Shown: one piece after another, positions 2,932-63,422 of the stretch | How positions within the stretch are numbered: the first letter of the stretch is position 1 | Layout of the letters: every line of letters starts with the position of its first letter | Source: Halioglobus sp. | GTDB lineage: Bacteria; Pseudomonadota; Gammaproteobacteria; Pseudomonadales; Halieaceae | Reading direction: 5' to 3' | Assembly: GCA_002699145.1 (NCBI GenBank) | Contig: PABK01000041.1 | Location: 248,001-312,000, forward strand | Length of the DNA: 64,000 bases | The notes under the pieces: model-generated | Seen by the model: only the letters and a program-made list of their open reading frames with translations | The model's database searches: none | Told to the model about the DNA's origin: nothing | Made by a program: the position numbers and the translations under genes

Positions 2932-5022
2932 CTATTCCAGGTAGCTGCTGGCTTCACGGGTGAGCGTATCGAAATCAAGCCGCAGGTAACTGTCGCCGTA
3001 ACTGAAGCTGATGACGTCCGCGGGGAAGCCCGACTGGCTCCAGGCATTGTCGTAACGCGGGTAATTGTCCAGCGCTAGCGCGACACCATTGTGCAACACC
3101 GGGCCTTCCCATCCCATCTCGATCGCCCCCTGTGATGGCGACTCGTAGCGCACCTCAAGGCTGTCCGCGTCGGCGACCAGCGGCGCGGCCAGGATGGCGG
3201 TCCTGAAAGCCTCGAAGTCGCCGTAGGCGCCGGCATCGCCCAGCTCGCAGATCCACACGGTCTTCTCCCCGGCGGCGATGATGTCGTAGTCGCCGCCACC
3301 GCCGAACCCCTGCTCGACGGCGGGAATCCAGTCGGCGTCGGGATCCGAGGACCACAGCGCGAGGTAGGCGTCATCCTTGCGCGCGAAAAACCACTGCCCC
3401 TGCTTGAGGCTTTCGTCGAACCTCGCCCGCGGCAGGAAGGCGTGGCTGTACAGTGGCTGGTTGGAATAGTACAGGCCGTCGCGCGTGTCCACGTCGTAGA
3501 GGGTGATCACCACGTTCTTCACCTGGGCGGCGCGCGGCAGGGTGCCATAGCCAACCCAGTAATTGGGCGACGAGCTGTCGGCGTCCTCCTCGTTGGCCGG
3601 GTGCGTGGTGAACGCCACGGCTTCCATGCCCAGGGTCGCCTGCCAGATGGAGGATTGGTCGCCGCCATAGCCCTTGCGCCAGTCCTGGGCGGTGCTGAGC
3701 ATGTAGTCGGGCGTACGGTAGGTGTAGATATTCACCTCCGGGCGCATATTGCGGGTAATGTCCCACTCGTAGGTCGCCACCGCCGCGGCGCGCACCTCGG
3801 GGTCATCCAGAAACGCGCGGTACTCCTTGAAAGGGCTGAAATCGCGCAGGCCCCACCACTGGTAGGCATTGAGCATGGCGTAGAAGGTATCGATGAACAG
3901 CGGATGCGTGTACGGCTCCATGGTCATGAACAGCATGCCGTCATCCAGGCTGTCGATATCCAGCCCCCAGGAGGCCGCCTCCTCGAGCTTGATGCCCATG
4001 CGCTGCCTGTTTTCCAGCGGCGCAACGCCCGCGTCGTTGGCGATCAGGGACAGCACCTGCGGTACACGGTAGTTCTCCGACAGGGCGAGCATGGCGGTGG
4101 ACATGGTGCCCGAGTGCAGGCGATGCAGGCCAAACGCCATGTGCATGATGCCGCGGGCGGAGTCACGGTTGCCGTTCATCTTGTGCGTGTAGGTGCGGCC
4201 GTGAGTGGCGCCGAAGTTGCCGCCAAAGTTGTTCAGGGCCATGTCCGCCAGGATCAGGTCCAGCACCATGCGCGACTTCTGCACCAGTTCGTCGTCCTCC
4301 GCCAGCTCGATCAGGGCCAGCAGCGCGGGTATATCGGCGTTGTAGTACACGTTCGACAGCCACTCGCTGAAACCGCTGGCGTAGCGCAGCTCGAGCCAGC
4401 GCAGGATGCGCTCACGGTAAACGGCCATCTGTTGCGCGCCGGTCCTGCCCGAGGCGGGAAAGACCCGCTCCGGGTAGAGCTGGCCGGCGATGTAGGCGCC
4501 GGAGGTAAACAGGATGTAGTGGTTCTCGGTCCAGGTCACCATGGTCTGGCTGTCGCTGGTGCCCGGCACGTCCTGCAGTTCGTCGGGCCAGTACTTGAAG
4601 TTGATGATCGCGTCCTCAATACGCTGGCGCTGCTCACTATCCAACACGTTGCTGTCCGCGTAGCGCGCCAGCAGGGTGAGAAATCCCGGCAGCGCGAAGT
4701 CGGCGGTATCGTCGCGGTTGTTGAGCTGCTCCAGGTCCTCGTCGAAGCTGCCCTCGCGCGGCGCCAGGCCGGCGGCAATGTGCAGCAGGGCGCCGTAGGT
4801 GCCGCCACGCCCGACCGCGACCGCGTCGTCGAGCACCGCCTGCTGCACCAGCTGAAACGCCGTGGGCGCCGGCGGAATTTCGGGGCTGTCCTCCACGCGC
4901 CTGTCGCTGCCGTCACTGCAACCAAGCAGGAGGGAGAGACATAGGATGGCCAGCAGTAAGGAAAAACGCGGGGCCCGGCAGGCCGGCAGCCCCACGACGG
5001 TTGTAGTTGCCGTGGTGTTCAT
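2932..5022 (-). CDS. Lipoprotein, (alpha/alpha)-toroid plus beta domain; candidate polysaccharide lyase
   Basis: This is a complete 696-aa paralogue of the partial gene at the window start. The start is supported by an upstream GAGAG and by a well-formed lipoprotein signal ending LLLGC, with the lipidated cysteine at residue 35 followed by SDGSD. Residues of about 60-400 look all-helical, and about 420-696 beta-rich. Conserved-looking polar clusters are WTENHYILF, NVYYNAD and THGRTYTHKMNGN, resembling the Asn/His/Tyr/Arg sets used by toroid-fold lyases. I cannot assign a named family. Genes for unsaturated uronate catabolism (kduD, kduI, GH105) lie directly upstream on its 5' side. A surface-bound or periplasmic lyase acting on a uronic-acid polysaccharide would fit, but it is an inference. 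Confidence 0.72.
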   Translation of the reverse strand: MNTTATTTVVGLPACRAPRFSLLLAILCLSLLLGCSDGSDRRVEDSPEIPPAPTAFQLVQQAVLDDAVAVGRGGTYGALLHIAAGLAPREGSFDEDLEQLNNRDDTADFALPGFLTLLARYADSNVLDSEQRQRIEDAIINFKYWPDELQDVPGTSDSQTMVTWTENHYILFTSGAYIAGQLYPERVFPASGRTGAQQMAVYRERILRWLELRYASGFSEWLSNVYYNADIPALLALIELAEDDELVQKSRMVLDLILADMALNNFGGNFGATHGRTYTHKMNGNRDSARGIMHMAFGLHRLHSGTMSTAMLALSENYRVPQVLSLIANDAGVAPLENRQRMGIKLEEAASWGLDIDSLDDGMLFMTMEPYTHPLFIDTFYAMLNAYQWWGLRDFSPFKEYRAFLDDPEVRAAAVATYEWDITRNMRPEVNIYTYRTPDYMLSTAQDWRKGYGGDQSSIWQATLGMEAVAFTTHPANEEDADSSSPNYWVGYGTLPRAAQVKNVVITLYDVDTRDGLYYSNQPLYSHAFLPRARFDESLKQGQWFFARKDDAYLALWSSDPDADWIPAVEQGFGGGGDYDIIAAGEKTVWICELGDAGAYGDFEAFRTAILAAPLVADADSLEVRYESPSQGAIEMGWEGPVLHNGVALALDNYPRYDNAWSQSGFPADVISFSYGDSYLRLDFDTLTREASSYLE

Positions 5023-5117
5023 GCTTCAACTCTCTTCAGTGTTTGCGCGCCACCGCTTCCATTGCCCCGTCCAGGGCGTCCCGGACAGCCGTGGCGCATA
5101 CGTAAAACTACGTTGCG

Positions 5118-5879
5118 CTAACGCGCCAGCCAACCGCCGTCCACGGCCAGTGTGTGGCCGTTGACATAGGCGGACGCGGGGCTGGCGAGGAAGACCACCG
5201 CGCCGGCCAGGTCCTGTGGCAGGCCCCAGCGCCCGGCGGGTATACGCGCCAGGATCTCCTCATTGCGCACCGGGTCATCGCGCAGCGCCTGGGTGTTGTC
5301 GGTCGCCATGTAACCCGGCGCAATCGCATTGACGTTGATGCCGTGGGGAGCCAGTTCATTGGCCATCGCCATGGTCAGCCCCCGCACCGCCGACTTGCTC
5401 GAGGTGTAGGACGCCACACGTATGCCGCCCTGGAAAGACAGCATCGACGCGATGTGGATGATCTTGCCCCCTGTGCCCCGGTCGATAAACTCCCGGGCCA
5501 CCGCCTGGGAAAGAAAAAACAGCGTCTTGAGGTTCAGGTCCATCACCTCGTCCCAGTCCTGCTCGGTAAAGTCGATCAGGTCGTTGCGGCGAATGGTGCC
5601 GGCGTTGTTCACGAGTATATCGATGCCAGCGCAGGCATTGTTCGCCTGCGCCACGATATCGGGCACGCACGACTTGTCTGTCAGGTCGGCGCGGATACCG
5701 AGGAAACGCCGGCCCATGGCCTCCACCTGGGCGGCGGTATCAGACATGTCCGACACGCCCACGCCGACCACGTCAGCACCCGCCTCGGCCAGCGCCAGCG
5801 CGATGCCCTTGCCCAGGCCCCGTGACGCGCCCGTGACCATTGCCGTTTTTCCCTGCAGGCTGAATTCATCCAGTACCAT
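5118..5879 (-). CDS. kduD: 2-dehydro-3-deoxy-D-gluconate 5-dehydrogenase (KduD), SDR family
   Basis: This 253-aa classical short-chain dehydrogenase has the length expected of KduD. It shows the NAD(P) glycine motif TGASRGLG near residue 18, the NNAG motif, the catalytic Ser of IASMLSF and the Tyr/Lys pair SYTSSK. The C-terminal region ends GHTLAVDGGWLAR, as in KduD. In pectin or alginate-type uronate catabolism this enzyme interconverts 2,5-diketo-3-deoxygluconate and 2-keto-3-deoxygluconate. It follows the isomerase/epimerase gene by 21 bp in the same operon as kduI, which strongly supports the assignment over generic gluconate dehydrogenases. No kdgK or kdgA is in the window, so the last steps must be encoded elsewhere. 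Confidence 0.88.
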   Translation of the reverse strand: MVLDEFSLQGKTAMVTGASRGLGKGIALALAEAGADVVGVGVSDMSDTAAQVEAMGRRFLGIRADLTDKSCVPDIVAQANNACAGIDILVNNAGTIRRNDLIDFTEQDWDEVMDLNLKTLFFLSQAVAREFIDRGTGGKIIHIASMLSFQGGIRVASYTSSKSAVRGLTMAMANELAPHGINVNAIAPGYMATDNTQALRDDPVRNEEILARIPAGRWGLPQDLAGAVVFLASPASAYVNGHTLAVDGGWLAR

Positions 5880-5900
5880 GGTCGCTCTCCCGGCCAGGTT

Positions 5901-6695
5901 TCAGAAAAGTGCCTCGTAGCCGAGGCGTTTCAGGTGAGCGACACTGCCGGCCACCTGCTCGAAGGGAGCGCCGGTGTCCTGCTCTATCGCCATGTAGTTC
6001 ACACCGTGCTCGACGCAACTGTCCACGATGCGGGTGAAATCCAGGTTGCCGCTGCCCAGCGCGGCGTCGGTCGCGGAGAGCCCGAAAAGCCCCCTGCGCA
6101 ATTTGAAATCGCGCAGGTGCACCACCTTCACGCGCCCGGCGAGATCGCAGATCATATCGTGGGCGGCGCGTCCGCCTCGGGCCGCCCAGTAGGTATCCAG
6201 CTCCAGCCCGACATGATCCGCCGAGGTGTTCTCCAACAGCAGGTCCAGGCCCAGGCGATCGCCGTAACGGCGAAACTCGAAATCGTGGTGGTGAAAGCAC
6301 AGCTGCAGCCCACGCTCCCGGTAGTAGCGCCCCAGCGACTCCAGCCTGTCCGCGAAGCGCAGCAGGCTGTCGCGCCCACCCAGGATGGCCTTCATCGGCA
6401 GCACGGACACACTGCTGAAAGCGCAGCCGAGTTTCTGGTGCAGCTCGAGCACCCAGTCGCGCCGGCGGTCCAGGAAGTCGAAGGTGATCTGCGTGCTGCC
6501 GACAGTGATAGCGTGCATGCCACAGGCGCGACCCACCGCCTCGATCTCCTCGCGCTCCAGCCGGATGTAGGCGAGTTCCACCGAGTTCAGGCCCGCCTTA
6601 CTGATACGCGCAAAGCAGCTCTCGACCGCGGCGGGCGATTTCAGGTACTTGCGAACCGTAAAGGTCTGCAGCGCGAAACGCGGGTGTCCAGCCAT
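5901..6695 (-). CDS. Sugar phosphate isomerase/epimerase-like TIM barrel protein
   Basis: This 264-aa protein of the xylose-isomerase-like TIM-barrel superfamily (AP endonuclease 2 type) starts only 5 bp after kduI. Visible motifs are the opening LQTFTVRKYLKS, the metal-ligand-type LCFHHHDFEF near the middle, GLELDTYWAARGG, and VKVVHLRDFK, all in the order expected of the family's divalent-metal site. It probably isomerises or epimerises a free sugar, keto-uronate or derivative entering the Kdu pathway. Its exact substrate cannot be read from sequence. It is likely co-transcribed with kduI and kduD and under the same TetR-type control. Confidence 0.8.
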   Translation of the reverse strand: MAGHPRFALQTFTVRKYLKSPAAVESCFARISKAGLNSVELAYIRLEREEIEAVGRACGMHAITVGSTQITFDFLDRRRDWVLELHQKLGCAFSSVSVLPMKAILGGRDSLLRFADRLESLGRYYRERGLQLCFHHHDFEFRRYGDRLGLDLLLENTSADHVGLELDTYWAARGGRAAHDMICDLAGRVKVVHLRDFKLRRGLFGLSATDAALGSGNLDFTRIVDSCVEHGVNYMAIEQDTGAPFEQVAGSVAHLKRLGYEALF

Positions 6696-6700
6696 AAAAT

Positions 6701-7537
6701 CTACTTGAGGTCGGCCGGGCTCAGGTGGTCCATGTCGTCAAACGTCTGGTTCTCGCCCACCATGCCCCAGATGAAGGTGTAGTGGCTGGTACCGGCGCCG
6801 GAATGGATGGACCAGCTCGGGGAGATCACCGCCTGCTCGTTCGCCACCATGATATGACGGGTCTCCTGCGGCTGGCCCATCAGGTGAACTACCCGCGCGT
6901 CGGCGGGCATGTCGAAGTAGAAGTACACCTCCATGCGACGCTCGTGCGTGTGGCAGGGCATGGTGTTCCAGATACTGCCCGGTTCAAGCATGGTCAGGCC
7001 CATCACCAGCTGGCAACTGGCGCAGACATCGGGGTGGACGTACTGGTAGATAGTGCGCTTGTTGCACGTCTCATCTTCCCCCAGGCGTACGGGGTTGGCC
7101 TGCTCGATGGCAATGTGCGTGTGCGGATACTGCCGGTGGGCGGGTGCGCTGTTGAAATAGAAGCGCGCCGGCCTGTCGGCGCTGTCGGACTCGAACAGGA
7201 TCTCTTTCACGCCCATGCCGATATACAGCCCGTCGCGCTCGCCGAGGCCGAAGCGCTCCCCGTCCAGGACAATACTGCCGCTGCCGCCGACGTTGATGAC
7301 GCCGGCTTCGCGGCGCTCGAAGAAATAGTCGACGCCCATTTCCTTGCCCGCCTCGAGCCCGACAGCCTTGTTCACCGGCATGATGCCGCCGGCGATGATC
7401 CTGTCCACGTGCGAATAGGTAAACGACGCCGTATCGGCGACGAACACCGACTCGACCAGGAAGTGGCGGCGAAGCTGTTCGGTGGTGTAGTGCTTAACGT
7501 CCTCGGGGTGTGTGGCGTAGCGGATATCCAGTTCCAT
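6701..7537 (-). CDS. kduI: 5-dehydro-4-deoxy-D-glucuronate isomerase (KduI)
   Basis: This 278-aa protein matches KduI in length and sequence, opening [20 protein letters not shown]. It carries the cupin zinc motif [18 protein letters not shown] near residues 190-206, where two histidines and a glutamate bind the metal, and a further histidine in the terminal [12 protein letters not shown] segment. KduI converts 5-keto-4-deoxyuronate, released spontaneously from unsaturated uronates, to 2,5-diketo-3-deoxygluconate. It is the first gene of the minus-strand kduI-isomerase-kduD run and is divergent from the TetR gene. The shared 143-bp interval holds a palindromic operator. The assignment is firm. 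Confidence 0.95.
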
Positions 7538-7629
7538 GTCGATTGCCCGTGTTCAGGTTGCGAATTACAGGCCCGGATACGCCAGTCGCTCCGGGCGCTT
7601 CATAGCAGTGTTGGCAATTCTACTTATTT

Positions 7630-7647: not shown

Positions 7648-7680
7648 TAAATTTTTCCCCATACGCTCCGGGCGCGTCAC

Positions 7681-10952: not shown

Positions 10953-11891
10953 CTAGTCCCGGGGGTGTTGCAGTATCCAGCCGACGAACTGGTCGAGCCC
11001 CGCGGGAACCCAGGGTGCGGGGATATGTGGCCCGCCATTCATTTTCCAGAATTCCACCGCACTGCCGCGCAGGCAGCCCGGCCAGCTGGTCACCGAGGTC
11101 TCGGCGCCGTCGATGCTGGCGACCAGGTCCACATCCGCCTGCGCCTGGGGATTGGCCGTATCGCAACCGGCCAGCATGGCGTAGCGCTGCGCCACCGCCG
11201 GCGCACTCAGGTAGCGACCCTCAATACCGTCGAAGAACACGGTGTCGTCCTGGTCGCCGTGGATACTCAGTACACTCACCCGTTCGCTGGCGGGCTGGCA
11301 GAGCTCCAGGTCGACAAAGGTGGAGCCGGCCAGCTGCACCAGCGAGGTCACCAGGTGCGAGGCTTCGCAGGCCATGGTCAGCGCCATGAAGCCGCCGCTG
11401 GAGTGACCGATGAGCCCGACCCTGCTGGTATCGACACTGTAGGTCGCCGCGGCCTCCTCGATGAGCCCGGACAGGTAGCCGACGTCGCTGATCGCGTCCG
11501 CCTCGGCGGCAGGCGTATCGCAGCAGGTCGGGGTGGAACGCCACTGCCTGCGGCCGTCTCCCGCCACCAGCCCGTCGGGGTAGACGAGGATGTAATCGCG
11601 CCGGTCGACGCCGTCCAGCAGGTCCATGTACAGGGACTGGACCAGGCCGTTGACACCGCGCCCGTGCAGCACCATGACCAGGGGGTAGCGCCGGGTGACG
11701 TCGTAATCCGCCGGTAGCGCCACCATGGAGGGCCTCTCGCCACCGATAACCAGTGGCGGGTTGGGCTGGCAACTGCCGCTGTCGGCACAGCCGGGCAGGC
11801 GATAGCGGGCGGAGTCGCTGCCATCACTGCAGGCGCCGAGCAGCGCGACGGCGGCGACAAGCGGCAACGCCGCCAGGATTTTGCTGAACAT
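10953..11891 (-). CDS. Lipoprotein esterase, PHB-depolymerase/feruloyl-esterase-like alpha/beta hydrolase
   Basis: I place the start at 11891 because GGAGGTG lies 5 bases upstream of that ATG. The 312-aa product then begins with a lipoprotein signal (cysteine 21, LLGAC) followed by SDGSD. An upstream in-frame extension is arginine-rich and unlikely. The hydrolase has PLVMVLHGRG with the oxyanion region, the nucleophile elbow GHSSGGFMA, a later Asp in SIHGDQDDTV and a histidine near the C-terminus (NGGPHIPAP). This is the LpqC/poly(3-hydroxyalkanoate) depolymerase-like group, which also includes feruloyl and acetyl-xylan esterases. Cysteine pairs suggest disulfides. The substrate is probably an ester-substituted polysaccharide or polyester. 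Confidence 0.85.
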   Translation of the reverse strand: MFSKILAALPLVAAVALLGACSDGSDSARYRLPGCADSGSCQPNPPLVIGGERPSMVALPADYDVTRRYPLVMVLHGRGVNGLVQSLYMDLLDGVDRRDYILVYPDGLVAGDGRRQWRSTPTCCDTPAAEADAISDVGYLSGLIEEAAATYSVDTSRVGLIGHSSGGFMALTMACEASHLVTSLVQLAGSTFVDLELCQPASERVSVLSIHGDQDDTVFFDGIEGRYLSAPAVAQRYAMLAGCDTANPQAQADVDLVASIDGAETSVTSWPGCLRGSAVEFWKMNGGPHIPAPWVPAGLDQFVGWILQHPRD

Positions 11892-12095
11892 GGACACCTC
11901 CGGGGTCTCTTCTACTGGCCGCCATGTTCCCGCGCGCGGCGCCGTCTTGCAACGGCTATTTGCGCGGCGCCGCCAGCCTGGCGCGGCAATGCGGGCGGCG
12001 GCCAGCGCGCCGGCAGGGGCCAACCGCACGTGTTGCGGCGCGGCTGGAAATACGCTTAGCTATGACGCCAGGTTCCGTATAACAAGGCCCCCGCA

Positions 12096-13685
12096 ATGGC
12101 TATAACAGGACCAGGCACCGACCACTACCGGGTTTACCGCATTGCCGTCGTGCTGCTGACAGCGCTGTTGGCAGCCTGCAGCGACGGCTCCGACCAGGGT
12201 GAACGCTTTACCGGCAGGGCTTATTACATCGACTGCGACGCAGCGGACACCGGGGAAGGCAGCCGGAAAGCGCCGTGGAATGCCCTCGGGGCCGCCAGTT
12301 CAATCACCCTGGCGCCGGGAGACCAGCTCCTGTTGCGCCGCGGCAGCAGCTGCAACGGCATGCTCAAGCCCCGGGGCTCGGGCACGGCAGACGAGCGCAT
12401 ACGCATCGGCGCCTATGGCCAGGGACCGCTGCCGCGCATCGACGCCGGGGGAACACACACGGCGGCCGTGCATATCGAGGACATGTCCCACCTGGTAGTG
12501 CAGGACCTGGAACTGACCAACCCCGGCGACGAGTCCGAACCGCACCGGGGTGTGTACCTCACCTCGGCGCAGACGAAAGTCACCAATATCGAGATCCGCG
12601 ACCTGTACATCCACGACGTGACCGGCCCGGTGGGATTCAACGGCACCGCCAAGCGCGGCGGCGGGATCATCGCCAATTCGCTGTTCGACACCGTGGATAC
12701 GCAGTTCGATGGCGTACTGATCGAGAACAACCTGATCGAGGACGTGGGCCGCAGCGGTATTTATTTCGACGGCACTACCGCCGGCTCAGGCGACCGGCCT
12801 CGCGCCGACCAGGCGTGGCCGGCGGCTGGCCAGGGCGTGGTGATTCGCGGCAATACCCTGAAACGGCTGCAGGGCGACGCCATCGTTGCCCACGGCACCG
12901 CCGGGGCAATCATCGAGGACAACGTGGTCAGTGTCGGCAATCTTGCGGGCAGGGACTGGCTGAGCCCCGAACGCAACTGCGCCGCGGGCATCTGGACGTG
13001 GAATTCCATCAACACCCTGATCCAGAGAAACGAGGTGTCCGGCTACCGTTTCGGGCAGAGCCCGACCGACGGCTGCGACGGCACCGGCTTCGACATCGAC
13101 AACGAGCAGGAAGGAACCATCATCCAGTACAACTACAGCCACAACAATGAGGGGGGGTTTATCCTGCTGTGCAGCGACGACGAACCGCATGCCGCGGAAG
13201 TGCGCTACAACCTCAGCATCGACGATGGCAAGGTCATCAACGTCAGCCCTTGCAAATTCCCCACCATCGGCACGCTCGGTGATATCCGCTTCTACAACAA
13301 CACCTTCATCGCCACCGCGCCGAACACGGGCATGGAAACCCTGCCACTGGAAATGTTCTCCAATCCAGGGAATTTCCTCTTTGCCAACAACATCATCTAC
13401 GCGACGACAGCGCAGAGCACGACCATCGCCTGCGGCGATCGCTGCAGCAACAACCTCTTCTTCAACCTGCCGCCCGTCGGCACCCAGAACTTCAGTGGCG
13501 ACCCGCTGTTCGAGGACGCGGCCTGGCGGGGTGCCGGGCGCGAAGCGGCCGGCGAGGCGTTCCGCATCCGCAATGGCTCGCCCGCGTACGCCGCCGGCCT
13601 GGGACTGACGGACCCGCCGGCGACAGACTACCTGGGCAACGCGGTACCCGCCACGCCGTCTATCGGTATGCACCAACCGCGCTGA
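12096..13685 (+). CDS. Lipoprotein with right-handed parallel beta-helix (pectate-lyase-like)
   Basis: This 529-aa protein has a lipoprotein signal ending ALLAAC, with the lipidated cysteine at residue 28 followed by SDGSD. From about residue 40 it shows beta-helix repeats of the PbH1 type: IEDMSHLVVQDLELTN, IEIRDLYIHDV, GVLIENNLIEDVGRSGIYF, VVIRGNTLKRLQGD, AIIEDNVV and IIQYNYSHNNEGGFIL. The N-terminal YYIDCDAADTGEGS is typical of secreted pectate-lyase-like proteins. No family-specific catalytic lysine or arginine can be assigned. It could be a polysaccharide lyase, a mannuronan-epimerase-like protein or a binding protein for uronate polymers. Confidence 0.8.
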   Translation: MAITGPGTDHYRVYRIAVVLLTALLAACSDGSDQGERFTGRAYYIDCDAADTGEGSRKAPWNALGAASSITLAPGDQLLLRRGSSCNGMLKPRGSGTADERIRIGAYGQGPLPRIDAGGTHTAAVHIEDMSHLVVQDLELTNPGDESEPHRGVYLTSAQTKVTNIEIRDLYIHDVTGPVGFNGTAKRGGGIIANSLFDTVDTQFDGVLIENNLIEDVGRSGIYFDGTTAGSGDRPRADQAWPAAGQGVVIRGNTLKRLQGDAIVAHGTAGAIIEDNVVSVGNLAGRDWLSPERNCAAGIWTWNSINTLIQRNEVSGYRFGQSPTDGCDGTGFDIDNEQEGTIIQYNYSHNNEGGFILLCSDDEPHAAEVRYNLSIDDGKVINVSPCKFPTIGTLGDIRFYNNTFIATAPNTGMETLPLEMFSNPGNFLFANNIIYATTAQSTTIACGDRCSNNLFFNLPPVGTQNFSGDPLFEDAAWRGAGREAAGEAFRIRNGSPAYAAGLGLTDPPATDYLGNAVPATPSIGMHQPR

Positions 13686-14614: not shown

Positions 14615-15751
14615 TCAGAACAGCGGCAGCCCTGCGGCCTCGCAGGCGGCGCCGTTGACCGGGTTACAGCGCGCGACCCCGGGTCCCGGCAGGGTCACCT
14701 GATAGTCCGTGAAGCGCGGGTCCGGTTGCGGGTAATCGGTGCTGACAAACTGCGCGCCGCTGGCCAGTGCCGCGTCGCGCCGCGTGGTATCGCCATTGCG
14801 CGATTCCTGCGTATCCGCATCCGCGCGGGTGCGCACCAGGTAGCCTCTGCTCACCAGGTCCGCTATCTCCCCCGGATTGGACAACGGGTCGTTGCGCTTC
14901 ATGAAGGCCGCCTCGGGTGTGCCGGGGGGCGAGTCGGTAAACATCACGCGTCCGGCCAGTGAGCTGTGGCCCTGCACGTAGGTGTCACGCCTGGCGCCGC
15001 CGTTGTCCAGCGCGAACATGACCTTGCCGCGGGCCTCGCCGAGCGTGGGCCAGCCGCGGGTGAGCACGGCCTGCTCCAGGGTCACGCTGTCGCCGCGCAC
15101 ATCGTCCGGCAGGATGATACGCGCGTCGGCAAAAACACTGCGAATCTCCGTATCGATGCGGCCCAGCGCCGCGGCGTCGAAAGGTACCGGCACGCTGAAG
15201 CCGAGTTCCAGCGGGTCGACAATCGCCTCGTCCTTGGCCTCGATCAGGACCATCACCGGCAGGTGTTGTGGGTTATCGTCGGACCACTGCCGTATCTCCT
15301 GCAGGCAGCGCACCAGGGTCAGGCAGGTGGTCTGGTAGTCGATTTCCTGCACGTGCAACACCTTCAGGCCGGGCTCGTCCAGTTCGGCAAGACCCGAAGC
15401 GGCGGGCTCATCGAACAGCGTACGGACCTTGCGCTCGGCGTACAGGCCGCCCTGCGGGTCGGCGAAAACGTCCAGTTCGAACTGGCGTATCCCCAGCTCC
15501 TGCAGCTGTTCGGTCAACGGCCTGTGGGTATACTGCAGCGTCGGCGCCGTCTCTGGTATGACCGCCAGCAACAGCCCGAACAGGTCCTCCTCCGGTTCGA
15601 TATGGTAGCTGTTGTGCGTGCCCAGGTACTGCAGCTGATTCATCGGCAGGCTGTCCAGGACGTTCGCCACCGGGTTGTCGCTACCGTCGCTGCAGCCGAG
15701 CAACAACAGTGGGGCCAGCAGGGACGCGATCCAGTTCAAGAACTTGTACAT
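14615..15751 (-). CDS. Lipoprotein, PI-PLC X-like phosphodiesterase (Ca2+-dependent PLC-C1 type)
   Basis: This 378-aa lipoprotein (signal ending LLLLGC, cysteine 20, then SDGSD) has a phosphatidylinositol-phospholipase-C-like TIM barrel. The catalytic-type QYLGTHNSYH is at residues of about 38-48, followed by YTHRPLTEQLQELGIRQFEL, VMVLIEAKD, and late GKVMFALDNGG. The architecture matches the PLC-C1-like group of secreted bacterial phosphodiesterases rather than the classic Bacillus enzyme. It probably hydrolyses a phosphodiester in a lipid or glycan in the periplasm or on the cell surface. An AGGTGG lies near the start. It is transcribed alone. Confidence 0.82.
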   Translation of the reverse strand: MYKFLNWIASLLAPLLLLGCSDGSDNPVANVLDSLPMNQLQYLGTHNSYHIEPEEDLFGLLLAVIPETAPTLQYTHRPLTEQLQELGIRQFELDVFADPQGGLYAERKVRTLFDEPAASGLAELDEPGLKVLHVQEIDYQTTCLTLVRCLQEIRQWSDDNPQHLPVMVLIEAKDEAIVDPLELGFSVPVPFDAAALGRIDTEIRSVFADARIILPDDVRGDSVTLEQAVLTRGWPTLGEARGKVMFALDNGGARRDTYVQGHSSLAGRVMFTDSPPGTPEAAFMKRNDPLSNPGEIADLVSRGYLVRTRADADTQESRNGDTTRRDAALASGAQFVSTDYPQPDPRFTDYQVTLPGPGVARCNPVNGAACEAAGLPLF

Positions 15752-21341: not shown

Positions 21342-22346
21342 ATGAACAACTGTCTCGCCGTAAACCGCCCCACCGCGCACGGCCGCGCCGCGACCTGGCT
21401 GGCTGCGTTTCTCGCCCTCTGTCTCGTCGGCTGCGTCCAGACCAAGACCACGCCGGGTTACGCCCGGGCAGGGGACCACATCGTCATCGGCCTGGGCGGC
21501 GCCGAGCGCAACCTCGGCGGGGCAACGGTGCTCAAAGCCGCGGACCTGAGCATCGTGCTCACCGACGCGAACGACGTCCAGCACACCCTGGAAGCGCGTT
21601 TCATTTTCCGCTCCTTCGCGGACTACGCGTCGCAGATGACCACCTACACCATGGACGGCACCCTCGACGATGTCGGCCTCTCCGGCATGGTGCCCTACGA
21701 CGGCGGCTGGTTCGTGGTCTCGCCGCTGACCACCCCCGGCAACTACAACAACCCCCTGCCACTGGCGGTGGGGCCCGCGACCATCGCGGTCACCTCAGCC
21801 AAGCTCACCAATACTGCCGGCGCGCTGGAGGGCGACCTCAGCGCCATCCCCATCGAGATCATCGCCGGCACCTCGCCCCAGGACACGGATTTCACGCGCC
21901 AGTTCACCGGGTACAAGGCGGACCCGGACCGCTTCTTCATCACACCCGACGATCTCACCGGGATTACCGAGGTCGGGGGCGCGTTCCTGGTCGTCGAGTA
22001 CAACGACGAGTCGTTTTTCGACGAGGGTATCGCGCCCACCGTGGTGCCGCTCAATCACAACCCCTACGTGCAGTTGAGCTACAACGTGGTGCCCAACGGC
22101 GACGGCACCGGCCGCATCTACGTCACCCTGATCAACCCCGCGGGCTTCACCACGCCGGCCGGCGCCAGCCCGAATTCCTCACTGTTGTCGGACCTGGGCG
22201 TGCAGCTGGTCTACTTCCCCACGGGCAGCGCGGCCCAGGCCAAGACGGTCTTCAGCCTGGACCTGGTGGCCAGCTACTACATGGACATCAACGGTTTCCC
22301 GCTGGGCAGCGTGGCGCCGGTGCTTACCCATGTCCAGGATCTCTGA
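21342..22346 (+). CDS. Secreted lipoprotein of unknown function, partner of the matrixin
   Basis: This 334-aa protein starts at ATG 21342; much longer in-frame extensions run antisense through the sulfotransferase and are rejected. Its lipoprotein signal ends CLVGC and is followed by VQTKTT, so it lacks the SDGSD tag. The mature part looks like one or two beta-sandwich domains (VIGLGGAERNLGGATVL, LSYNVVPNGDGTGRIYVTLINPAG). I recognise no family. It overlaps the downstream metalloprotease by 17 bp, implying co-expression, so it may be a substrate, inhibitor or anchoring partner of that enzyme. Confidence 0.72.
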   Translation: MNNCLAVNRPTAHGRAATWLAAFLALCLVGCVQTKTTPGYARAGDHIVIGLGGAERNLGGATVLKAADLSIVLTDANDVQHTLEARFIFRSFADYASQMTTYTMDGTLDDVGLSGMVPYDGGWFVVSPLTTPGNYNNPLPLAVGPATIAVTSAKLTNTAGALEGDLSAIPIEIIAGTSPQDTDFTRQFTGYKADPDRFFITPDDLTGITEVGGAFLVVEYNDESFFDEGIAPTVVPLNHNPYVQLSYNVVPNGDGTGRIYVTLINPAGFTTPAGASPNSSLLSDLGVQLVYFPTGSAAQAKTVFSLDLVASYYMDINGFPLGSVAPVLTHVQDL

Positions 22347-29470: not shown

Positions 29471-32080
29471 TCAACTGCCAAAGCTTTTCGACAAGCTGTG
29501 GCAAATGTCACAAGACACGGGCTCTCCCGCACTTACCGCACGCCAGGAGTCTTCGACATAGAAGCGACGGTCCGTCGCCGCGCGGGACAGCACAGTGCCG
29601 CGATGGTCGGCACCGTGACAGTCGCCGCAGAGCCCTCCACCTGGTTTGCCATTTTCCCGCTTGGCAATATCCTTGTGCGCCTCCTTCCAGAAACGCCGGT
29701 CATCCACGAGGTGCATTCCATGTGGTCCGTCCAGTGTATCGGCCTGCATCGCCTGCGTGTCGTGGCAGGTGGTGCACTCTATGATGGGCCCAGTATGGCC
29801 CTGCAACTGGATCGCGGTCTGGTTGTCATTCGCATTCGGGTCGGACAAAGGCCATTCTGCGTGGGTTGAACCGTGACAGCCCTGACACATGACCCCGCCG
29901 TGGCCAGTACTCACACGATACAGCTTTGGGTTCCCCGCCGCGGGGTTGGCGAAGCCGTTGAAGACTTCTGGAACCAATGGTTCTGCAAACAGCTTGTTGC
30001 CAGGTACGATGGGTGTTGCCTTGGCATCCCCGGTGAGAAACGCCTGGCGCAACCGTATCCCGTCCCTGACACCGCGGCTGTCGCGCAAATTGACCATCAC
30101 TCCAGCCTGCTGCGTGAGGTTGTCATTCGCGCTGCCTGTATGACAGGAACCACAGCCGGGCTCATTGGCCCAGGGCACCCGGGCTTGCGGACTGCCGCTG
30201 TCATAGAAATTTCCCTGGTCCAGCACAAACGCCCCGGGATTGGCGGCAGACACCCCGGCGGAGAAGTCCGCACCGACCTGGTTGATGCTGCCGTGACAGT
30301 CGCTGCACAAAATGCCGGCATTAAACATGGCGCCACGCAGGCACTTCGTCTCTTTACCGGGGTGGCACTGGTAGCAGTTACTCTCAAGGGCGCCCAGGCG
30401 CTCAACTTGATTGAGAATGACCCCGGTGGCAGGGTCCTGCACTGCCGGGGGAATAGCCGGAAACAACCCGGGCAGATTGCCGTGATGGTTGTGCATGACC
30501 CGTGAATTCGTCTCGTGCACCAGTTGGTTGCGCCCATTGGCCGGACTGCCGGGAGGTCCCGACACGGGACCGGATTGGGCAAGGTCCAGCGCGGGAGTGT
30601 AATGGCAGCTCTGGCAAACTATCGGCTGGCCGGCATCCAAAGCGCGGGCGAGCAGGCAGCTCGGCGAACCGTTGCTTCCCTGGTAAGGGCTGCACGCATC
30701 GGCCTCGTGCACCACGTTGTCGCCGTCCATCGCCGGCTTGACGTATGCGCTGCCGTGCCTGAGGTCGTGCAGGCGCAGGATATTCAAGTCGGCGGCGTAC
30801 TCAAGACTAACTGACTCGGGCACGCCCCCTACTGCAAACTCGGGATCGGCCGTCTTTAGAGAAACGACAAGCCCCGCTGCCGCAAGGGCCTGAGCTGGGG
30901 CGGCAGACAACGCCTGGGGATTGTCGAGCGGGCTGGCGTGACAGTTCGTGCAACTCGTTTCGGCAGATACGGGCAACACCGTGTCGACCGTGGACACCAC
31001 CTCACCCGCCATACTGGCCTCCACCCGCGCCAGGGGAAAGGGATTGAGCCGACCATCGTCGTCGAATGGCGATCCGGGAATACCGGGCGCCTCAAACCAG
31101 TTCACGCTTTCAGCGATGTAGCCAATCGGAAAATTGATAAAGAAAGGCTTGTCACGGTAGTGCTCGTGCAACGACTGGGGCGAATTTTTCACCAGAGGGT
31201 TGGCATTGCCGGGCATGGCCTGCTGCACCGCACTGAGATACTCGTCGCCGTCACCCACAATACCGTTCTCCCCGAGGTATAACAGCTCCGCGTTCGGGAC
31301 CGGCAGACCTGTATCGGGGGTTACCGGGAAGGGCCCTGTCGCCAGGGGCGTGACCTGTGGCGGGTAGAATGCGTCGTAGGAAGCATGGGGAATACCCTCC
31401 CAAAAGCGGGTCTTGAAGCCTGTTCCATCGGCTGCCAGGCCGGGCCGGGCAGCGTTATCCAGAGCCGGATCCAGCGGGTTGGACGCGGCGGAGTAGTGTA
31501 GTTCCACGTCAGCCGGATTGAGCTCAGGCGCGGCGCCTTTGCGTATCACCTGGGCCACCATGACCTGGAACGGCGGCAGGATATTGGCGATGCGCCCATC
31601 CAGATCGACACAGTGCATACCCAGGTCATTGACAGCAAACACCGAGTAGGCGCCCTCCAGTACCTGTGGGCGCTCCTGGACCGGCGAAAACGCGCCCGGG
31701 TACAGCCCGGTAGCACTGGTGGAATTGATCGACCGGGGTGTATCGTCTACTTCGAATTCCGGCAGTAAATAAGTGTCGACGTCGAGCGCGGTGAGAGAAG
31801 CCGGTACCCCTTGCAATGCGCAGGGTGTTTTTTTACCCGCGCAGAGGCTGCCCTCGGCACTCCGCCAGCCAGCGAAGCGATATCCAGGCGCTGCCACCGC
31901 GGTAAAGGTATCGCCAAAATATTCTCCCTGTACCTCTACGACACAGGTTTCGCCGGCCTCACAGTCACGCGTACCCGAAGAGGAAATGATCGAACCGTGT
32001 TCAGGGATTACCTGGGTGATGCGACAACCCTGCAACAGGGCCAGCACCAGTGACAAACTCAAAACTATCGCACGTTGCAT
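29471..32080 (-). CDS. Nine-haem cytochrome c lipoprotein
   Basis: The start at 32080 has AGGGAG upstream and opens a lipoprotein signal (MQRAIVLSLSLVLALLQGC); the longer frame beyond it is rejected. The 869-aa product has nine CXXCH haem sites: CTNCH, CQSCH, CYQCH, CSDCH, CGSCH, CQGCH, CTTCH, CGDCH and CDICH, spread over residues of about 375-862. Residues of about 20-110 resemble an InlB-B/bacterial repeat domain (VAAPGYRFAGWRS). The middle region has two further non-haem domains. It is probably an outer-membrane-associated electron-transfer or reductase protein. Hand counts of 29941-30000 and 30361-30420 give about 54% GC against 67-73% in sampled neighbours, which suggests transfer. Confidence 0.87.
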   Translation of the reverse strand: MQRAIVLSLSLVLALLQGCRITQVIPEHGSIISSSGTRDCEAGETCVVEVQGEYFGDTFTAVAAPGYRFAGWRSAEGSLCAGKKTPCALQGVPASLTALDVDTYLLPEFEVDDTPRSINSTSATGLYPGAFSPVQERPQVLEGAYSVFAVNDLGMHCVDLDGRIANILPPFQVMVAQVIRKGAAPELNPADVELHYSAASNPLDPALDNAARPGLAADGTGFKTRFWEGIPHASYDAFYPPQVTPLATGPFPVTPDTGLPVPNAELLYLGENGIVGDGDEYLSAVQQAMPGNANPLVKNSPQSLHEHYRDKPFFINFPIGYIAESVNWFEAPGIPGSPFDDDGRLNPFPLARVEASMAGEVVSTVDTVLPVSAETSCTNCHASPLDNPQALSAAPAQALAAAGLVVSLKTADPEFAVGGVPESVSLEYAADLNILRLHDLRHGSAYVKPAMDGDNVVHEADACSPYQGSNGSPSCLLARALDAGQPIVCQSCHYTPALDLAQSGPVSGPPGSPANGRNQLVHETNSRVMHNHHGNLPGLFPAIPPAVQDPATGVILNQVERLGALESNCYQCHPGKETKCLRGAMFNAGILCSDCHGSINQVGADFSAGVSAANPGAFVLDQGNFYDSGSPQARVPWANEPGCGSCHTGSANDNLTQQAGVMVNLRDSRGVRDGIRLRQAFLTGDAKATPIVPGNKLFAEPLVPEVFNGFANPAAGNPKLYRVSTGHGGVMCQGCHGSTHAEWPLSDPNANDNQTAIQLQGHTGPIIECTTCHDTQAMQADTLDGPHGMHLVDDRRFWKEAHKDIAKRENGKPGGGLCGDCHGADHRGTVLSRAATDRRFYVEDSWRAVSAGEPVSCDICHSLSKSFGS

Positions 32081-58527: not shown

Positions 58528-59751
58528 TTACGCCGGATGCGCCGTGTGCGCCTCTATTTTCAGCGGCAGCAACAACGCCGCGGCGAGCCCGATGACCGCG
58601 CCGAACAGCCACAGGCCGGCGCTGTAGCTGCCGGTGGCGTCGAACAGGCGCCCGACCACGGCAAAGCCCGGCATGACACACAGCGCGATGACCGGTCCCA
58701 TCACTCCCATGGCGCGGCCAAAGCTGGCGATACCAAAGACCCGCGCGACCATGGCGTTCCACACCGGCAACATGCCCCCCGTGGAGAGGCCGAAACAGGT
58801 CGCCGCCAGCAGCAGCCAGGCATAGCCCGGCTCAACCAGGAGAATGGCAAAGGCGATACCCAGCAGCGCGTGGGCGCCCCACAGCCCGAACTTGAGGTTG
58901 ATCCTGTCGGCGGCGGTGCCAAACAGCAGCTTGCCCACCAGTCCAGCCACCGCCAGCACCGCGATCAGGGTGGAGATTGCGCCCTCACCCACCCCCAGGC
59001 GCGCCGCGTAGGGCGCCAGGTTGGCCAGCATGGAGGAGAACGCGGCGAACACCATCCCCATGCTCAGGCCGATCAGCCAGAAGGCGCGCATGCGCACGAT
59101 CTGCGCCAGGCCGGGGTCGGCGAGCTGGGCGCCCTGCGCCGCACTGTCCGCGGCACTTATGCCCTCTGGCTGCAGGCCCACATCCTGCGGACGGCTGCGC
59201 ACGCTCCAGCAGATGAATGGCAGGACCAGGCCGGCGGCGCACAGCGCCAGGTACTCCAGCGCACCGCGCCAGCCGTGGCGCTCCACCCAGAACGTCAGCA
59301 GGGCCGGGACAACCACGCCCCCCAGGGATGAGCCCATCGCGGCGATACCCAGCGCCTTGCCACGACTGGCGGTGAACCAGCGCGCGACCGCGGCGCTGCC
59401 GGCCATGGAGCCGGCCATGGCCATGGACACGGACATGGTGACCCCGATAGACAGGTTGAACGCGGTGATGCCCTGCGCGCGGGACGCCGCGTACAGGCCC
59501 GCCACCAGGACCAGGCAGCCCAGGGTCATGATCAGCCGCACCGATTGCCGGTCGATCAACACGCCAACCAGCGGCGCCACCAGCAAACCGAGCAGGGTCC
59601 CCAGGGTCATGCTGTACATCACCTGCTCGAGGCTCGCCGCGAAGGCCACACGGATCGGGTCGACCAGCACCGTGAAGCCGTAGGTAAAGAGACCGTTGGT
59701 GATGGCCATACCGACAAAGGCGCCGGCAACAACCCGCCATCCGTAGAACAT
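58528..59751 (-). CDS. MFS transporter (OFA/monocarboxylate-like)
   Basis: ATG 59751 with GGGAG upstream gives 407 aa and a classic 12-helix MFS protein. It opens with FYGWRVVAGAFVGMAITNG, the typical start of OFA/MCT-type carriers. Helix 2-3 has LLVAPLVGVLIDRQSVR, the DXXGRR-like loop, and helix 4-5 has ARWFTASRGKALGIAAMG. It probably carries a small carboxylate. The SDR gene diverges from it, and a shared substrate is possible. A longer upstream frame runs antisense through the SDR gene and is rejected. Confidence 0.87.
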   Translation of the reverse strand: MFYGWRVVAGAFVGMAITNGLFTYGFTVLVDPIRVAFAASLEQVMYSMTLGTLLGLLVAPLVGVLIDRQSVRLIMTLGCLVLVAGLYAASRAQGITAFNLSIGVTMSVSMAMAGSMAGSAAVARWFTASRGKALGIAAMGSSLGGVVVPALLTFWVERHGWRGALEYLALCAAGLVLPFICWSVRSRPQDVGLQPEGISAADSAAQGAQLADPGLAQIVRMRAFWLIGLSMGMVFAAFSSMLANLAPYAARLGVGEGAISTLIAVLAVAGLVGKLLFGTAADRINLKFGLWGAHALLGIAFAILLVEPGYAWLLLAATCFGLSTGGMLPVWNAMVARVFGIASFGRAMGVMGPVIALCVMPGFAVVGRLFDATGSYSAGLWLFGAVIGLAAALLLPLKIEAHTAHPA

Positions 59752-59878
59752 GGTGCAACTCCCGTTGAGATGGATAGCCATTCTTACCGCGCTGGCGACA
59801 CAAAGCCAGGGGTTTGGAGCACGGCTCACGTTTCCCCACGATCCCGACGGCGTTATGATGGCGATCTGACGATTCACC

Positions 59879-60799
59879 GTGGCACGACCACACGCCACAC
59901 GAAGAGGTGACATTATCCGCCGCATACTGATTACCGGGGCGAACAAGGGCATCGGCCTGGCCTGCGTGCGCGCCGCCCTGCAGCAAGCCGGGGACATTGA
60001 CGTGCTGCTGGGCTCGCGCGACAGCGAACGCGGCGCCGCGGCGCGACAGGCGCTGCTGGAGGAGAACCCGGCGTGGGCGTCGCGGCTGCAGGTGCTGCCC
60101 ATCGACGTGACCAGCGCAGACTCGGTCGACGCCGCCCGTACCGCGCTGTTGGCCGCCTGTGCAGACGATCCCGCCCCGCTGTACGGGCTGGTCAACAACG
60201 CCGGGGTGGGCCTGGCGTCGGATGACCTGGCCGCCGTGCTGGCGGTGAACACGCTGGGCGTGAAACGCGTCTGCGACGCCTTTCTGCCCTTGCTGCGGGA
60301 CGGCGGCCGGGTGGTCAACGTCTCGTCCGCCTCCGGCCCGAAGTTCGTCAGCCAGTGCAGCGCCGCTCGGCAGGCCTTTTTCACCGACGGCAACGCCCGG
60401 TGGACGGACATCGAGGAACTCATAGCGCAGTTGTCCGCGCCCGGCGATGCCGCGCAAGCTTGCGCCCGCCTGGGACTGGGGGAGTTCAACCCCTACGGCT
60501 TGAGCAAGGCCTGCGTCAGCCTGTACACGTTGATCCTCGCGCGCCAGCACCCACGGCTTCGTATCAACGCCTGTACGCCGGGGTACATAGAGACCGACCT
60601 GACGCGACCCCAGGCGCTGCGCCGCGGCGTGTCCCCGCAGGAGATGGGCATGCAGCCCCCGCAGCGGGGCACGGTATCCATCCTGCACCTGCTGCTCGGC
60701 GACGACCCCGGCAGCGGCTACTATTTCGGCAGCGACGCCCTGCGCAGCCCCCTGGACCGCTACCGCGCACCCGGCAGCCCGGCCTACACCGGGCCCTGA
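59879..60799 (+). CDS. Short-chain dehydrogenase, carbonyl-reductase-like
   Basis: This SDR of about 306 aa has the cofactor motif ITGANKGIGLACVRAA, NNAGVGLASDD, the catalytic Ser in NVSSASGPKF, Tyr/Lys in NPYGLSKA, and CTPGYIETDLT. An insertion between the Ser and Tyr (residues of about 155-200) matches carbonyl reductase-like SDRs of about 275-300 aa. The GTG at 59879 has no ribosome-binding site. AAGAGG at 59902-59907 precedes an in-frame ATT at 59912, so translation may begin nearer the Rossmann strand. It reduces an unknown aldehyde or ketone. Confidence 0.83.
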   Translation: MARPHATRRGDIIRRILITGANKGIGLACVRAALQQAGDIDVLLGSRDSERGAAARQALLEENPAWASRLQVLPIDVTSADSVDAARTALLAACADDPAPLYGLVNNAGVGLASDDLAAVLAVNTLGVKRVCDAFLPLLRDGGRVVNVSSASGPKFVSQCSAARQAFFTDGNARWTDIEELIAQLSAPGDAAQACARLGLGEFNPYGLSKACVSLYTLILARQHPRLRINACTPGYIETDLTRPQALRRGVSPQEMGMQPPQRGTVSILHLLLGDDPGSGYYFGSDALRSPLDRYRAPGSPAYTGP

Positions 60800-60923
60800 C
60801 CCGCCCCGGACGCAGGCCGCTGTCGCCGCAGCGGGAAAATCCGTCGCCCGCGCGCGCAATCTGCTACCCTGAAGTGATGATGCGCGCCCGCCATCACCAC
60901 CAATAATTCAAGAGGCATTCGCA

Positions 60924-63422
60924 ATGTCCCCGACCGTGTTTAGACACATCCGCCACCACCACGCGAAAACGGCCGTCCTGGGCCTGCTGCTCGGCGCCGT
61001 CCTGGCCGGCTGCAGCGACGGTTCGGACAACGCCAGCGAGCTACAGCCGGCCCGGGACCGCGCCTACTACATCCTGCCACCGGGCAACTACGGCGGGCTG
61101 CCCACCACAGAGAATTCCCTGGACCAGCTGCCGCTGTACGACGGCCTGACACCGCTGCGCGGCAACGTCACCGACGCGGACATCGAGGCGCTGTTCCTGC
61201 CCGAGGACTTTGCGCCGGTGGGCGACACCCGGGTGGAGGCGACGGGACGGCCCGGCCTGACCATCCTCTACGACGCCTTCGGCATCGCCCACATCGAGGG
61301 CGACACGCGCGAGGACATGGCCTTCGGCGCGGGCTGGGTGACCGCCCGCGACCGCGCCCTGCTGCTGGACCTGGGGCGCTGGCCGGCGCGCGTCGCCGTC
61401 GCCGACGTGCCGGGCATCAACGCCTTCGGCCTGGTCACCAGCGGGCAGAGTTTCGTGCCCAGCGCGGCAACCGAACAACTGGTCACGGACCAGGTGCAGC
61501 TCATCATCGACACCTACGGCGCGGAGGGCGAGCAGATAATCGCCGAGGCCAACGCCTACGCCGCCGGCGTCAACGCCTACAAGGCGTCCATCGGCGAGGC
61601 CGTGGATCCGCCGTTCAGCGCCAACGACGTCGTCGCCACCACCGCGTTCATCGGCTCCATCTTCGGCGCCGGCGGCGGCAGCGAGGCGGCCAACGCCGAT
61701 TTCCTGTCGACACTGGTCAACGGCATCGGCGACGGCCCCGGGCAACTGGCCTGGGAGGACGTCATGCTGTTCGACGACCCGGAGGCGCCGACGACCATCG
61801 AGCAGGTCTTCGACTACGGACCGCTTACCGGCGGACCGGTTACCGGCTCGGCGGTCATCGACGCCGGCTCCATCGTCTCGCTGGATCCGCTGCAGCCGCT
61901 GCCAGCGAGCCAGGGCGCGGCCATCGCCGCGGCGGCGCTGGTGCCGGCGGCGGATCCACCGCCGGACCGGGAGGCGTCGAACTGGCTGATCGTGCGCGAC
62001 GAGCGCTCGGTCAACGGCACCAACCTGGCGGTAATGGGGCCGCAACTGGGCTACTACTATCCCGAGATCGTCATGCAGATCCACCTCAAGGCGCCGGGGC
62101 TGGAGGCCCAGGGCGCCGCGGTGCCGGGCCTGGCCATGTACATGCTCATCGGCCGCACCCGCGACTACGCCTGGAGCCTGACCTCGGCGGGACACGACGT
62201 GCGCGATGTCTACGTGGAGGAACTGTGCGAGCCCGGCGAGGAGGCAGTAAGCCGGGACTCACTGCACTACCTGTACAACGGCCAGTGCATCCCCTTTGAG
62301 ATATTCGACGCCGGCACCCTCAACGGCAACCCCGTCGTCTACCCGGTGTCCGTGCACGGGCCGATGATCGGCACGGCCACCTCGAACGGCGCGCCGGTGG
62401 CCCTGACCCGCAAGCGCTCGACCTTTGGCCGTGACGGCCTCAACCTGGCGGCGCTGAAAGACATGACCGAGGGCGATGCGGACACCCCCGACAACTTCTT
62501 CGCCGCGGCCAACAAGTTCGGTTTCACCTTCAACTGGGGCTACGTGTCCCGCGACGCCACGGCCTACTTCAGCTCCGGCTACCTGCCGCAGCGTCCCCCC
62601 GGGCTGGACCGGCGCCTGCCCACCTGGGGCAACGGCGCCTACGAGTGGCAGGGTTTCCTGGCGGAACGTGAACACCCCCACGCCAGCGGCGGTCCCGAGG
62701 GCAGGTTGCTGAACTGGAACAACCAGTCGGCGCCGGGCTTCATGCACGGTGACGGCAACCCCTACGGCTCCGTCCACCGGGTGGAGACTTTCGACCAGTG
62801 GCCGGACATGGCGGAGCTGGCAGACGTGGTCAGCGTGATGAACCGCTCCGCCACCGAGGACGTGCGCTCCCCGGTGTGGCCGGTAATCAGCGAGGTGCTG
62901 CGCGGCGGCGCCGCGCCCAGCGAACTGGCGGGGCAGCTCATCGACCTGCTGGACGCCTGGGTGGACGAGGACGCACCGCGCCTGGACGCCGACGACGACG
63001 GTTTCAACGACCACGCCGGGCCGACGATATTCGACGCGCTGTTCGAGCCGCTGGCGGAAGCGGTCATGGCGCCGGTGTTCGGCGACCTGGTGGGCGAACT
63101 GGACGACATGCGCAACCTGAACGGCGACGACGGCGCGAGCCTGATGGACAAGGACCTGCGCAGCCTGCTCGGCAAGCCGGTGCAAGGCCCTTTCAACCTG
63201 CAGTACTGCGGCGCCGGCAATCTCGAGGCCTGCCGCGACAGCCTGTGGCAGGTGGTCGACAGCGTCGGCCAGGCACTCGCCGCGGAGTACGGCGGCGCGC
63301 CCGAGAGCTGGCTCAAGGAGGGTGCGCGCACGGGGTACACACCGGGCCTGATCCCGAATACCCACCGTTCCACCAACCGGCCCACGTTCCAGCAGGTGCT
63401 GGAGTTTGCGCCCGCGCCCTGA
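60924..63422 (+). CDS. Penicillin-acylase-family (Ntn hydrolase) lipoprotein
   Basis: This 832-aa precursor has a lipoprotein signal ending AVLAGC, the cysteine at residue 30 followed by SDGSD. The alpha-chain region has LTILYDAFGIAHIEGDTREDM and GAGWVTARDRALLLDLGR. The autocatalytic N-terminal nucleophile of the beta chain is Ser352 in EASNWLIV, followed by VMGPQLGYYYPEIVMQI. Members cleave amide bonds in beta-lactams, acyl-homoserine lactones or acylated peptides. The substrate here is open; AHL or N-acyl amino acid hydrolysis are candidates. Cysteines near residues 435-455 and 755-770 may pair. It is transcribed alone. Confidence 0.88.
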   Translation: MSPTVFRHIRHHHAKTAVLGLLLGAVLAGCSDGSDNASELQPARDRAYYILPPGNYGGLPTTENSLDQLPLYDGLTPLRGNVTDADIEALFLPEDFAPVGDTRVEATGRPGLTILYDAFGIAHIEGDTREDMAFGAGWVTARDRALLLDLGRWPARVAVADVPGINAFGLVTSGQSFVPSAATEQLVTDQVQLIIDTYGAEGEQIIAEANAYAAGVNAYKASIGEAVDPPFSANDVVATTAFIGSIFGAGGGSEAANADFLSTLVNGIGDGPGQLAWEDVMLFDDPEAPTTIEQVFDYGPLTGGPVTGSAVIDAGSIVSLDPLQPLPASQGAAIAAAALVPAADPPPDREASNWLIVRDERSVNGTNLAVMGPQLGYYYPEIVMQIHLKAPGLEAQGAAVPGLAMYMLIGRTRDYAWSLTSAGHDVRDVYVEELCEPGEEAVSRDSLHYLYNGQCIPFEIFDAGTLNGNPVVYPVSVHGPMIGTATSNGAPVALTRKRSTFGRDGLNLAALKDMTEGDADTPDNFFAAANKFGFTFNWGYVSRDATAYFSSGYLPQRPPGLDRRLPTWGNGAYEWQGFLAEREHPHASGGPEGRLLNWNNQSAPGFMHGDGNPYGSVHRVETFDQWPDMAELADVVSVMNRSATEDVRSPVWPVISEVLRGGAAPSELAGQLIDLLDAWVDEDAPRLDADDDGFNDHAGPTIFDALFEPLAEAVMAPVFGDLVGELDDMRNLNGDDGASLMDKDLRSLLGKPVQGPFNLQYCGAGNLEACRDSLWQVVDSVGQALAAEYGGAPESWLKEGARTGYTPGLIPNTHRSTNRPTFQQVLEFAPAP

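Follow-up and report, generated by a model that had tools for sequence, protein, structure and literature searches.

In enterobacteria, an aspartate at position +2 of the mature lipoprotein, the lipidated cysteine being residue +1, is a Lol-avoidance signal. Several routes lead lipoproteins to the cell surface, and those treated in a review include the type II secretion system (T2SS), Slam, BAM, and NalP (PMC7857515). For Acinetobacter baumannii, it has been reported that lipoproteins exported by the T2SS need GspN (Roberts, Gura, and Sandkvist, mBio, December 2025, PMC12802150). According to the same report, 13% of the lipoproteins of this species are T2SS-dependent, and surface export depends on residues +2 to +8, a segment enriched in Asp, Gly, Ser, and Asn. 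The post-cysteine residues are rich in Gly/Ser or Asn/Asp, with the motifs GGG or ND(N/D) at positions +2 to +4, and Gly/Asp hybrid motifs are described for two further species (PMC12802150). InvL is retained in the cell when given the start of Pal or LirL, and Pal furnished with the start of InvL is not exported either (PMC12802150). The cargo in Table 1 of the report comprises a GDPD protein (CNDDDKTE), alpha/beta hydrolases, an esterase, a nucleotidase, and a sulfatase, and the authors suggest that the motif has a dual role in Lol avoidance and recognition by GspN (PMC12802150). In another phylum, the export signal (LES) of Bacteroides fragilis has the consensus SDDDD, and the minimal LES of Capnocytophaga, K-(D/E)2 or Q-A-(D/E)2, is described as sufficient alone (PMC5080379).

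Here, we analyze a hexapeptide, CSDGSD, found at the lipidation site of lipoproteins of Halioglobus sp. (Halieaceae). The tag was unreported in the open-access literature searched in one library with the terms CSDGSD and Halieaceae plus lipoprotein.

Results

Tagged lipoproteins of the window

The window, which is the whole 64,000-nucleotide stretch analyzed, belongs to contig 57 of a genome of 5.2 Mb, designated G000. An earlier note on this DNA had pointed out five lipoproteins opening their mature chain with CSDGSD. All five tags proved to be in frame and at the lipobox cysteine. They are carried by a 'toroid' protein of 696 residues (2932..5022, minus strand; tag at 4903..4920), an esterase of 312 residues (10953..11891, minus strand; PF00756; tag at 11814..11831), a right-handed beta-helix protein of 529 residues (12096..13685, plus strand; PF13229; tag at 12177..12194), a PI-PLC-C1 protein of 378 residues (14615..15751, minus strand; PF16670; tag at 15677..15694), and a penicillin amidase family protein of 832 residues (60924..63422, plus strand; PF01804; tag at 61011..61028). 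Four of the five have a Pfam match, the exception being the toroid protein, for which neither Pfam nor NCBIfam gave one. The codons differ, as the note had claimed, and the five tags have five DNA spellings. Two further lipoproteins of the window lack the tag and begin with CVQTKT (21342-22346) and CRITQV (29471-32080).

The tagged esterase and beta-helix genes form an adjoining divergent pair (10953-13685). A sixth tagged lipoprotein, another esterase, is encoded 3.4 kb past the right end of the window (G000:C57:315445). Six of the 16 exact tags of the genome are located inside about 63 kb, comprising the window and the DNA just to its right.

The tag resembles the motif of GspN/T2SS lipoproteins, exemplified by InvL of Acinetobacter and PulA of Klebsiella, in placing Gly, Ser, Asp, or Asn just after the lipidated cysteine (PMC12802150). 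SDGSD is made up entirely of Ser, Asp, and Gly, in keeping with the Gly/Ser or Asn/Asp richness described for positions +2 to +8. In contrast to the Acinetobacter motifs GGG and ND(N/D), Halieaceae tags read SDG, SDS, or SDN at +2 to +4 and follow the fixed form S-D-x-[S/T]-[D/N] in a stricter register; the 19-row Acinetobacter table has Asp at +3 in nine rows and SDGSD in none (PMC12802150). The Ser at +2 and Asp at +3 are shared with the B. fragilis LES, a mark of surface lipoproteins, but the acidic residues of the tag are at +3 and +6, whereas those of the LES, in its different phylum, are adjacent (PMC5080379).

Frequency and register of the tag across genomes

The DNA pattern encoding CSDGSD had 16 matches in G000, versus none for the reversed-pattern control. 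All 16 tags directly follow a lipobox whose -1 residue is Ala or Gly, the status of the signal peptides being assigned by frame reading without a trained predictor. The frequency of the tag is thus far above chance, and the 16 tags have 13 distinct 18-base spellings, in agreement with the proposal that selection acts on the peptide. The first refuting condition of the note, a tag no commoner than other residues, was examined in part, the exact tag being searched genome-wide and the background established on a sample, and the idea of a tag survived it. The proteins had been called unrelated. This holds for the five of the window but not genome-wide, since the 16 include three pairs belonging to the same Pfam family (Abhydrolase_10, penicillin amidase, and esterase). 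With a relaxed pattern, three genes with CSDSSD and two with CSDNSD were also detected, one of the latter two being present on two contigs; other lipoprotein starts of G000 close to the tag are CSDGGD, CSDGHD, CSDSPD, and CADGND. Two motif words recur as an identically spaced pair at G000:C1:139596-140450 and G000:C21:2317-3171, so that contig 21 may be a duplicate of a portion of contig 1 in this assembly.

To describe the tagged proteins against other lipoproteins, a home-made gene and lipobox caller was applied to 60 stretches of G000 and to the window (1.25 Mb). It returned 58 candidates, of which 12 from regions with known tags (the window, L080, and L084) were left out; L075 was retained despite its known tags, having been picked on the grid. 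Asp was present at +3 in five of the remaining 46 candidates (CSDGSD twice, CSDNSD, CSDSSD, and CADGND), and all five also had Asp at +6. The other 41 had Asp at neither position, with Glu at +3 in one and at +6 in five. The association between Asp at +3 and at +6 was highly significant (Fisher P 7e-7 for the 46 candidates, several of the 41 looking like ordinary secreted or inner-membrane proteins). The tagged share of the census (11%) and the T2SS-dependent share in A. baumannii (13%) are both about a tenth (PMC12802150). A census of 13 stretches of another genome, G133, gave eight candidates, one of them tagged, a number too small to be of use.

In four relatives, CSDG[S/T]D was found at a lipobox-like site in all 38 distinct sites read (18 in G011, seven in G034, seven in G061, and six in G013, where six of eight places were fetched). 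With a length of just 66 residues, one of the tagged cases of G011 (L156) is possibly a broken gene or a spurious call. A single CTDGSD of G011 is not at a lipobox-like site. When 391 genomes of the order were scanned with the relaxed pattern, the 20 sampled from the host family gave 72 matches versus five for the control. Outside the family, at least one match was present in 150 of 371 genomes. At least eight matches were found in only three genomes, all from the host family, and the maximum outside was seven (G173). One 21-base word matching the relaxed pattern is present in five copies in G173 and three in G455, both genomes of the same order (family f35), and this repeated word is probably a mobile element rather than the tag.

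Conservation of the tag among relatives of tagged proteins

Three protein families were compared. The relatives of a tagged GDPD belong to Haliea, Parahaliea, Pseudohalioglobus, Kineobactrum, Seongchinamella, and Halioglobus. Among the 35 of 37 GDPD loci that were read, two distant partial matches being left out, Ser was present at +2 in 33, Asp at +3 in 32, Ser or Thr at +5 in 27, and Asp or Asn at +6 in 29; position +4 varied, the sequence was free from +7 on, and the complete C-S-D-x-[S/T]-[D/N] motif was found in 25. The three without Asp at +3 begin with CGGSGS (Algiphilus), CSSPDQ (a gammaproteobacterium), and CTGGTD (a MAG). For the penicillin acylase, 11 of 22 loci yielded an N-terminus under the filter used, with Ser at +2 in all 11, Asp at +3 in ten, and the full motif in seven.

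The Abhydrolase_10 family, represented by 30 loci of the order, distinguished the host family from the others. Asp was present at +3 after a lipobox in 12 of 12 Halieaceae proteins versus none of 18 from other families (P 1e-8, kinship ignored), as expected from the lineage-specific tag that the note had proposed. Two of the Halieaceae lipoboxes (L253 and L266) were missed by the pattern and read by eye, and two pattern matches outside the family (L261 and L274) were judged spurious. The full motif was found in six of the 12, the others having CDDSSQ, CGDSDS, CSDNSR, and similar starts. Most of the 18 proteins from other families have no lipobox, and the five lipoproteins among them begin with CKQ (two), CAK, CKT, and CNR. 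In all three sets, Asp at +3 is better conserved than the full motif C-x-D-x-[ST]-[DN]. The residues of the tag are all small or acidic, with +2 and +3 held and variation at +4 and from +7 onward.

Position +4 was tabulated for 190 tags from 16 genomes picked for their many matches, those of G000 and G011 being obtained with a pattern lacking Asn at +6. The distribution of Gly, Ser, and other residues was uneven across genomes (chi-square of 105, versus 63 for the highest of 5000 shuffles, kinship ignored). Gly accounted for 16 of the 21 G000 tags and for 18 of 21 in G011, and Ser for 17 of 20 in G001 and for all ten of those listed among the 13 G133 matches. Ser was the main residue in G001, G015, G043, G047, and G133, being specified by both Ser codon families except in G015. 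GC bias as the sole cause was rejected, as it fits genus g1 (G001 and G015, one locus each) but not G133, which has Ser at 62% GC. The plain reading is that the +4 spelling reflects drift at a free small residue. It is doubtful that a lineage-specific receptor reads the tag in strict register, tag and reader drifting together and hence giving each genome its +4 spelling, and that enzymes unlipidated in sister families acquire a lipid anchor and the tag in this lineage. In a search for co-variation between GspN and +4, one column of GspN followed the spelling, and 235 of 2000 label shuffles equaled this result.

Cargo of the tag

Eleven of the 16 exactly tagged proteins of G000 have a Pfam match over the cut-off (two Abhydrolase_10, a BD-FAE carboxylesterase, a GDPD, a GH10, two penicillin amidases, two esterases, a PI-PLC-C1, and a beta-helix); five have none or one below the cut-off, and for several proteins the scan was made on fragments cut at 506 residues. 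The tag or its Thr/Ser variant is present in relatives on PhoD, endonuclease/phosphatase, RPE65-like, GH10, Amidohydro_2, and beta-lactamase-fold proteins, and further tagged proteins of relatives include a tannase-like DUF6351 protein, a metallophosphatase, a PETase-like protein, a lipase, and a GH106. An NCBIfam search gave no name for any of the unknown tagged proteins.

Outside the window, 43 untagged candidates were considered, of which ten were left out, mostly because they did not look like lipoproteins, and 23 of the 33 submitted to Pfam matched a family. The untagged set contains PilP, BamC (NlpB), BamD (YfiO), Pal (OmpA domain), an SLT transglycosylase, an FKBP, and an M48 protein. 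Thus, lipoproteins obliged to face the periplasm (BamC, BamD, Pal, and PilP) are devoid of the tag in this sample. The idea that the tag marks hydrolases stood in part. The cargo consists mostly of hydrolases, but the tag or a close variant also occurs on beta-helix, beta-propeller, and PQQ-type propeller proteins, a GMC oxidoreductase, and several unknowns, and some enzymes (an amidase, a sulfatase, SurE, and DUF3604 proteins) are untagged. A tagged protein is therefore mostly an exoenzyme, but an untagged one is not necessarily a non-enzyme.

A second type of lipoprotein start, unlike the tag, was observed on four lipoproteins (window 29471-32080, minus strand; L017:10437-13277; L017:3593-4936; L020:7341-8549). 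It has the form C-x-x-x-(L/I/V)... G-x-I/V followed by a Cys-containing stretch rich in PGYRF/GW and resembles, by eye, an InlB-like repeat. The window protein is a multihaem cytochrome with nine CXXCH motifs and an MtrC/MtrF-like domain; a sulfatase is also among the four.

Type II secretion genes and export of tagged precursors

G000 harbors gspC, D, E, F, G, I, J, K, L, and M in one run, identified by Pfam except for gspD, which was identified by TIGR02517 (590 bits); the gspH candidate had no Pfam match at 1e-5. The gspN gene directly follows gspM (PF01203, 108.6 bits). In the family, gspN was found in 127 of 140 genomes, in 126 over the cut-off, and in 28 of 28 genera. GspD was over the cut-off in 133 of the 140 genomes and is thus near-universal, making a comparison of tag number with T2SS presence uninformative. 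Tag numbers vary widely among genomes with gspN. A second T2SS-like operon of G000 (L223, G000:C28:60001-80000) encodes a secretin and a subtype-b GspM and is followed by a small lipoprotein gene. Tag number was also considered in relation to a second GspD match in the genus, but this link was abandoned, as tag-poor G016 and G017 also have such a match.

Some tagged precursors have twin-arginine starts by eye (PhoD, RPE65-like, and Amidohydro_2 proteins of G011, and the GMC oxidoreductase of G000, tagged CSDSSD). Because the tag is common to Sec-like and Tat-like precursors, its signal probably acts after export across the inner membrane and lipidation.

Discussion

The tagged proteins of Halieaceae and the Acinetobacter set both comprise mostly hydrolases, including GDPD, in organisms that have a T2SS with gspN (PMC12802150). 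On account of this analogy and of the gsp gene content, we consider it likely that CSDGSD is the Halieaceae form of the GspN/T2SS lipoprotein sorting motif. Tagged proteins would accordingly resemble the Acinetobacter cargo in being located at the cell surface and dependent upon GspN. The T2SS with GspN is thus a published candidate for the dedicated machinery that the note had surmised. By the mechanism that this suggests, the precursor would be exported across the inner membrane through Sec or Tat, lipidated, and cut at the lipobox. Extrapolating from Acinetobacter, Ser-Asp-x-Ser-Asp at +2 to +6 would then block transport by Lol and let GspN, or a part of the T2SS near it, take the lipoprotein up. 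In the last step, the protein, already folded, would be handed on by GspD to the outside of the outer membrane and remain anchored there by its acyl chains. The kind of signal has already been published, and the S-D-x-S-D sequence form is probably a new variant of it.

Other explanations were weighed against this one. The tag could be a surface-display signal read by another translocator, a flippase of the Bacteroidetes type or Slam, its likeness to the LES having arisen by convergence. Ser at +2 and Asp at +3 also open the B. fragilis consensus, but the two adjacent acids needed by the minimal Capnocytophaga signal, near +3 to +5, are absent from SDGSD, as are K and Q (PMC5080379), and the genome does encode a T2SS with gspN, which fits the cargo; a TPR_Slam match in G000 was below the cut-off and in a general TPR protein. 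We therefore regard recognition by another translocator as unlikely. Lol avoidance through Asp at +3 could also be an end in itself, the tagged proteins being retained in the inner membrane. The acidic residues and Gly just after the cysteine are features of Lol-avoidance signals, and the discussion of PMC12802150 attributes this action to GGG and GDD in Pseudomonas. However, such signals define inner-membrane residence, whereas the families represented in the cargo (GH10, PI-PLC, PhoD, GDPD, and esterases) suggest extracellular proteins. If tagged proteins stay in the inner membrane, this is more probably the first step of T2SS export, and retention as such appears very improbable.

Shared descent offers a different kind of explanation, in which a signal-peptide cassette including the tag spread between genes. 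The three same-family pairs among the 16 tagged proteins would fit this scenario. The signal peptides are nevertheless unalike by eye, some being Sec-like and others Tat-like, and 16 tags are spelled in 13 ways at the DNA level. For these reasons the spread of a cassette was rejected, and we give it hardly any credence.

The likely assignment of CSDGSD to the GspN/T2SS motifs bears on how type II secretion picks lipoproteins, the motif and the role of GspN having been published in December 2025 (PMC12802150). The Halieaceae would offer a very sharp code in this respect, with one short tag in a fixed register, shared by many unrelated folds and legible from sequence alone. If the assignment is true, the differences in spelling from genome to genome would be a natural experiment for finding the contacts of the reader, and the tag would predict the set of surface-anchored enzymes of a widespread marine family.
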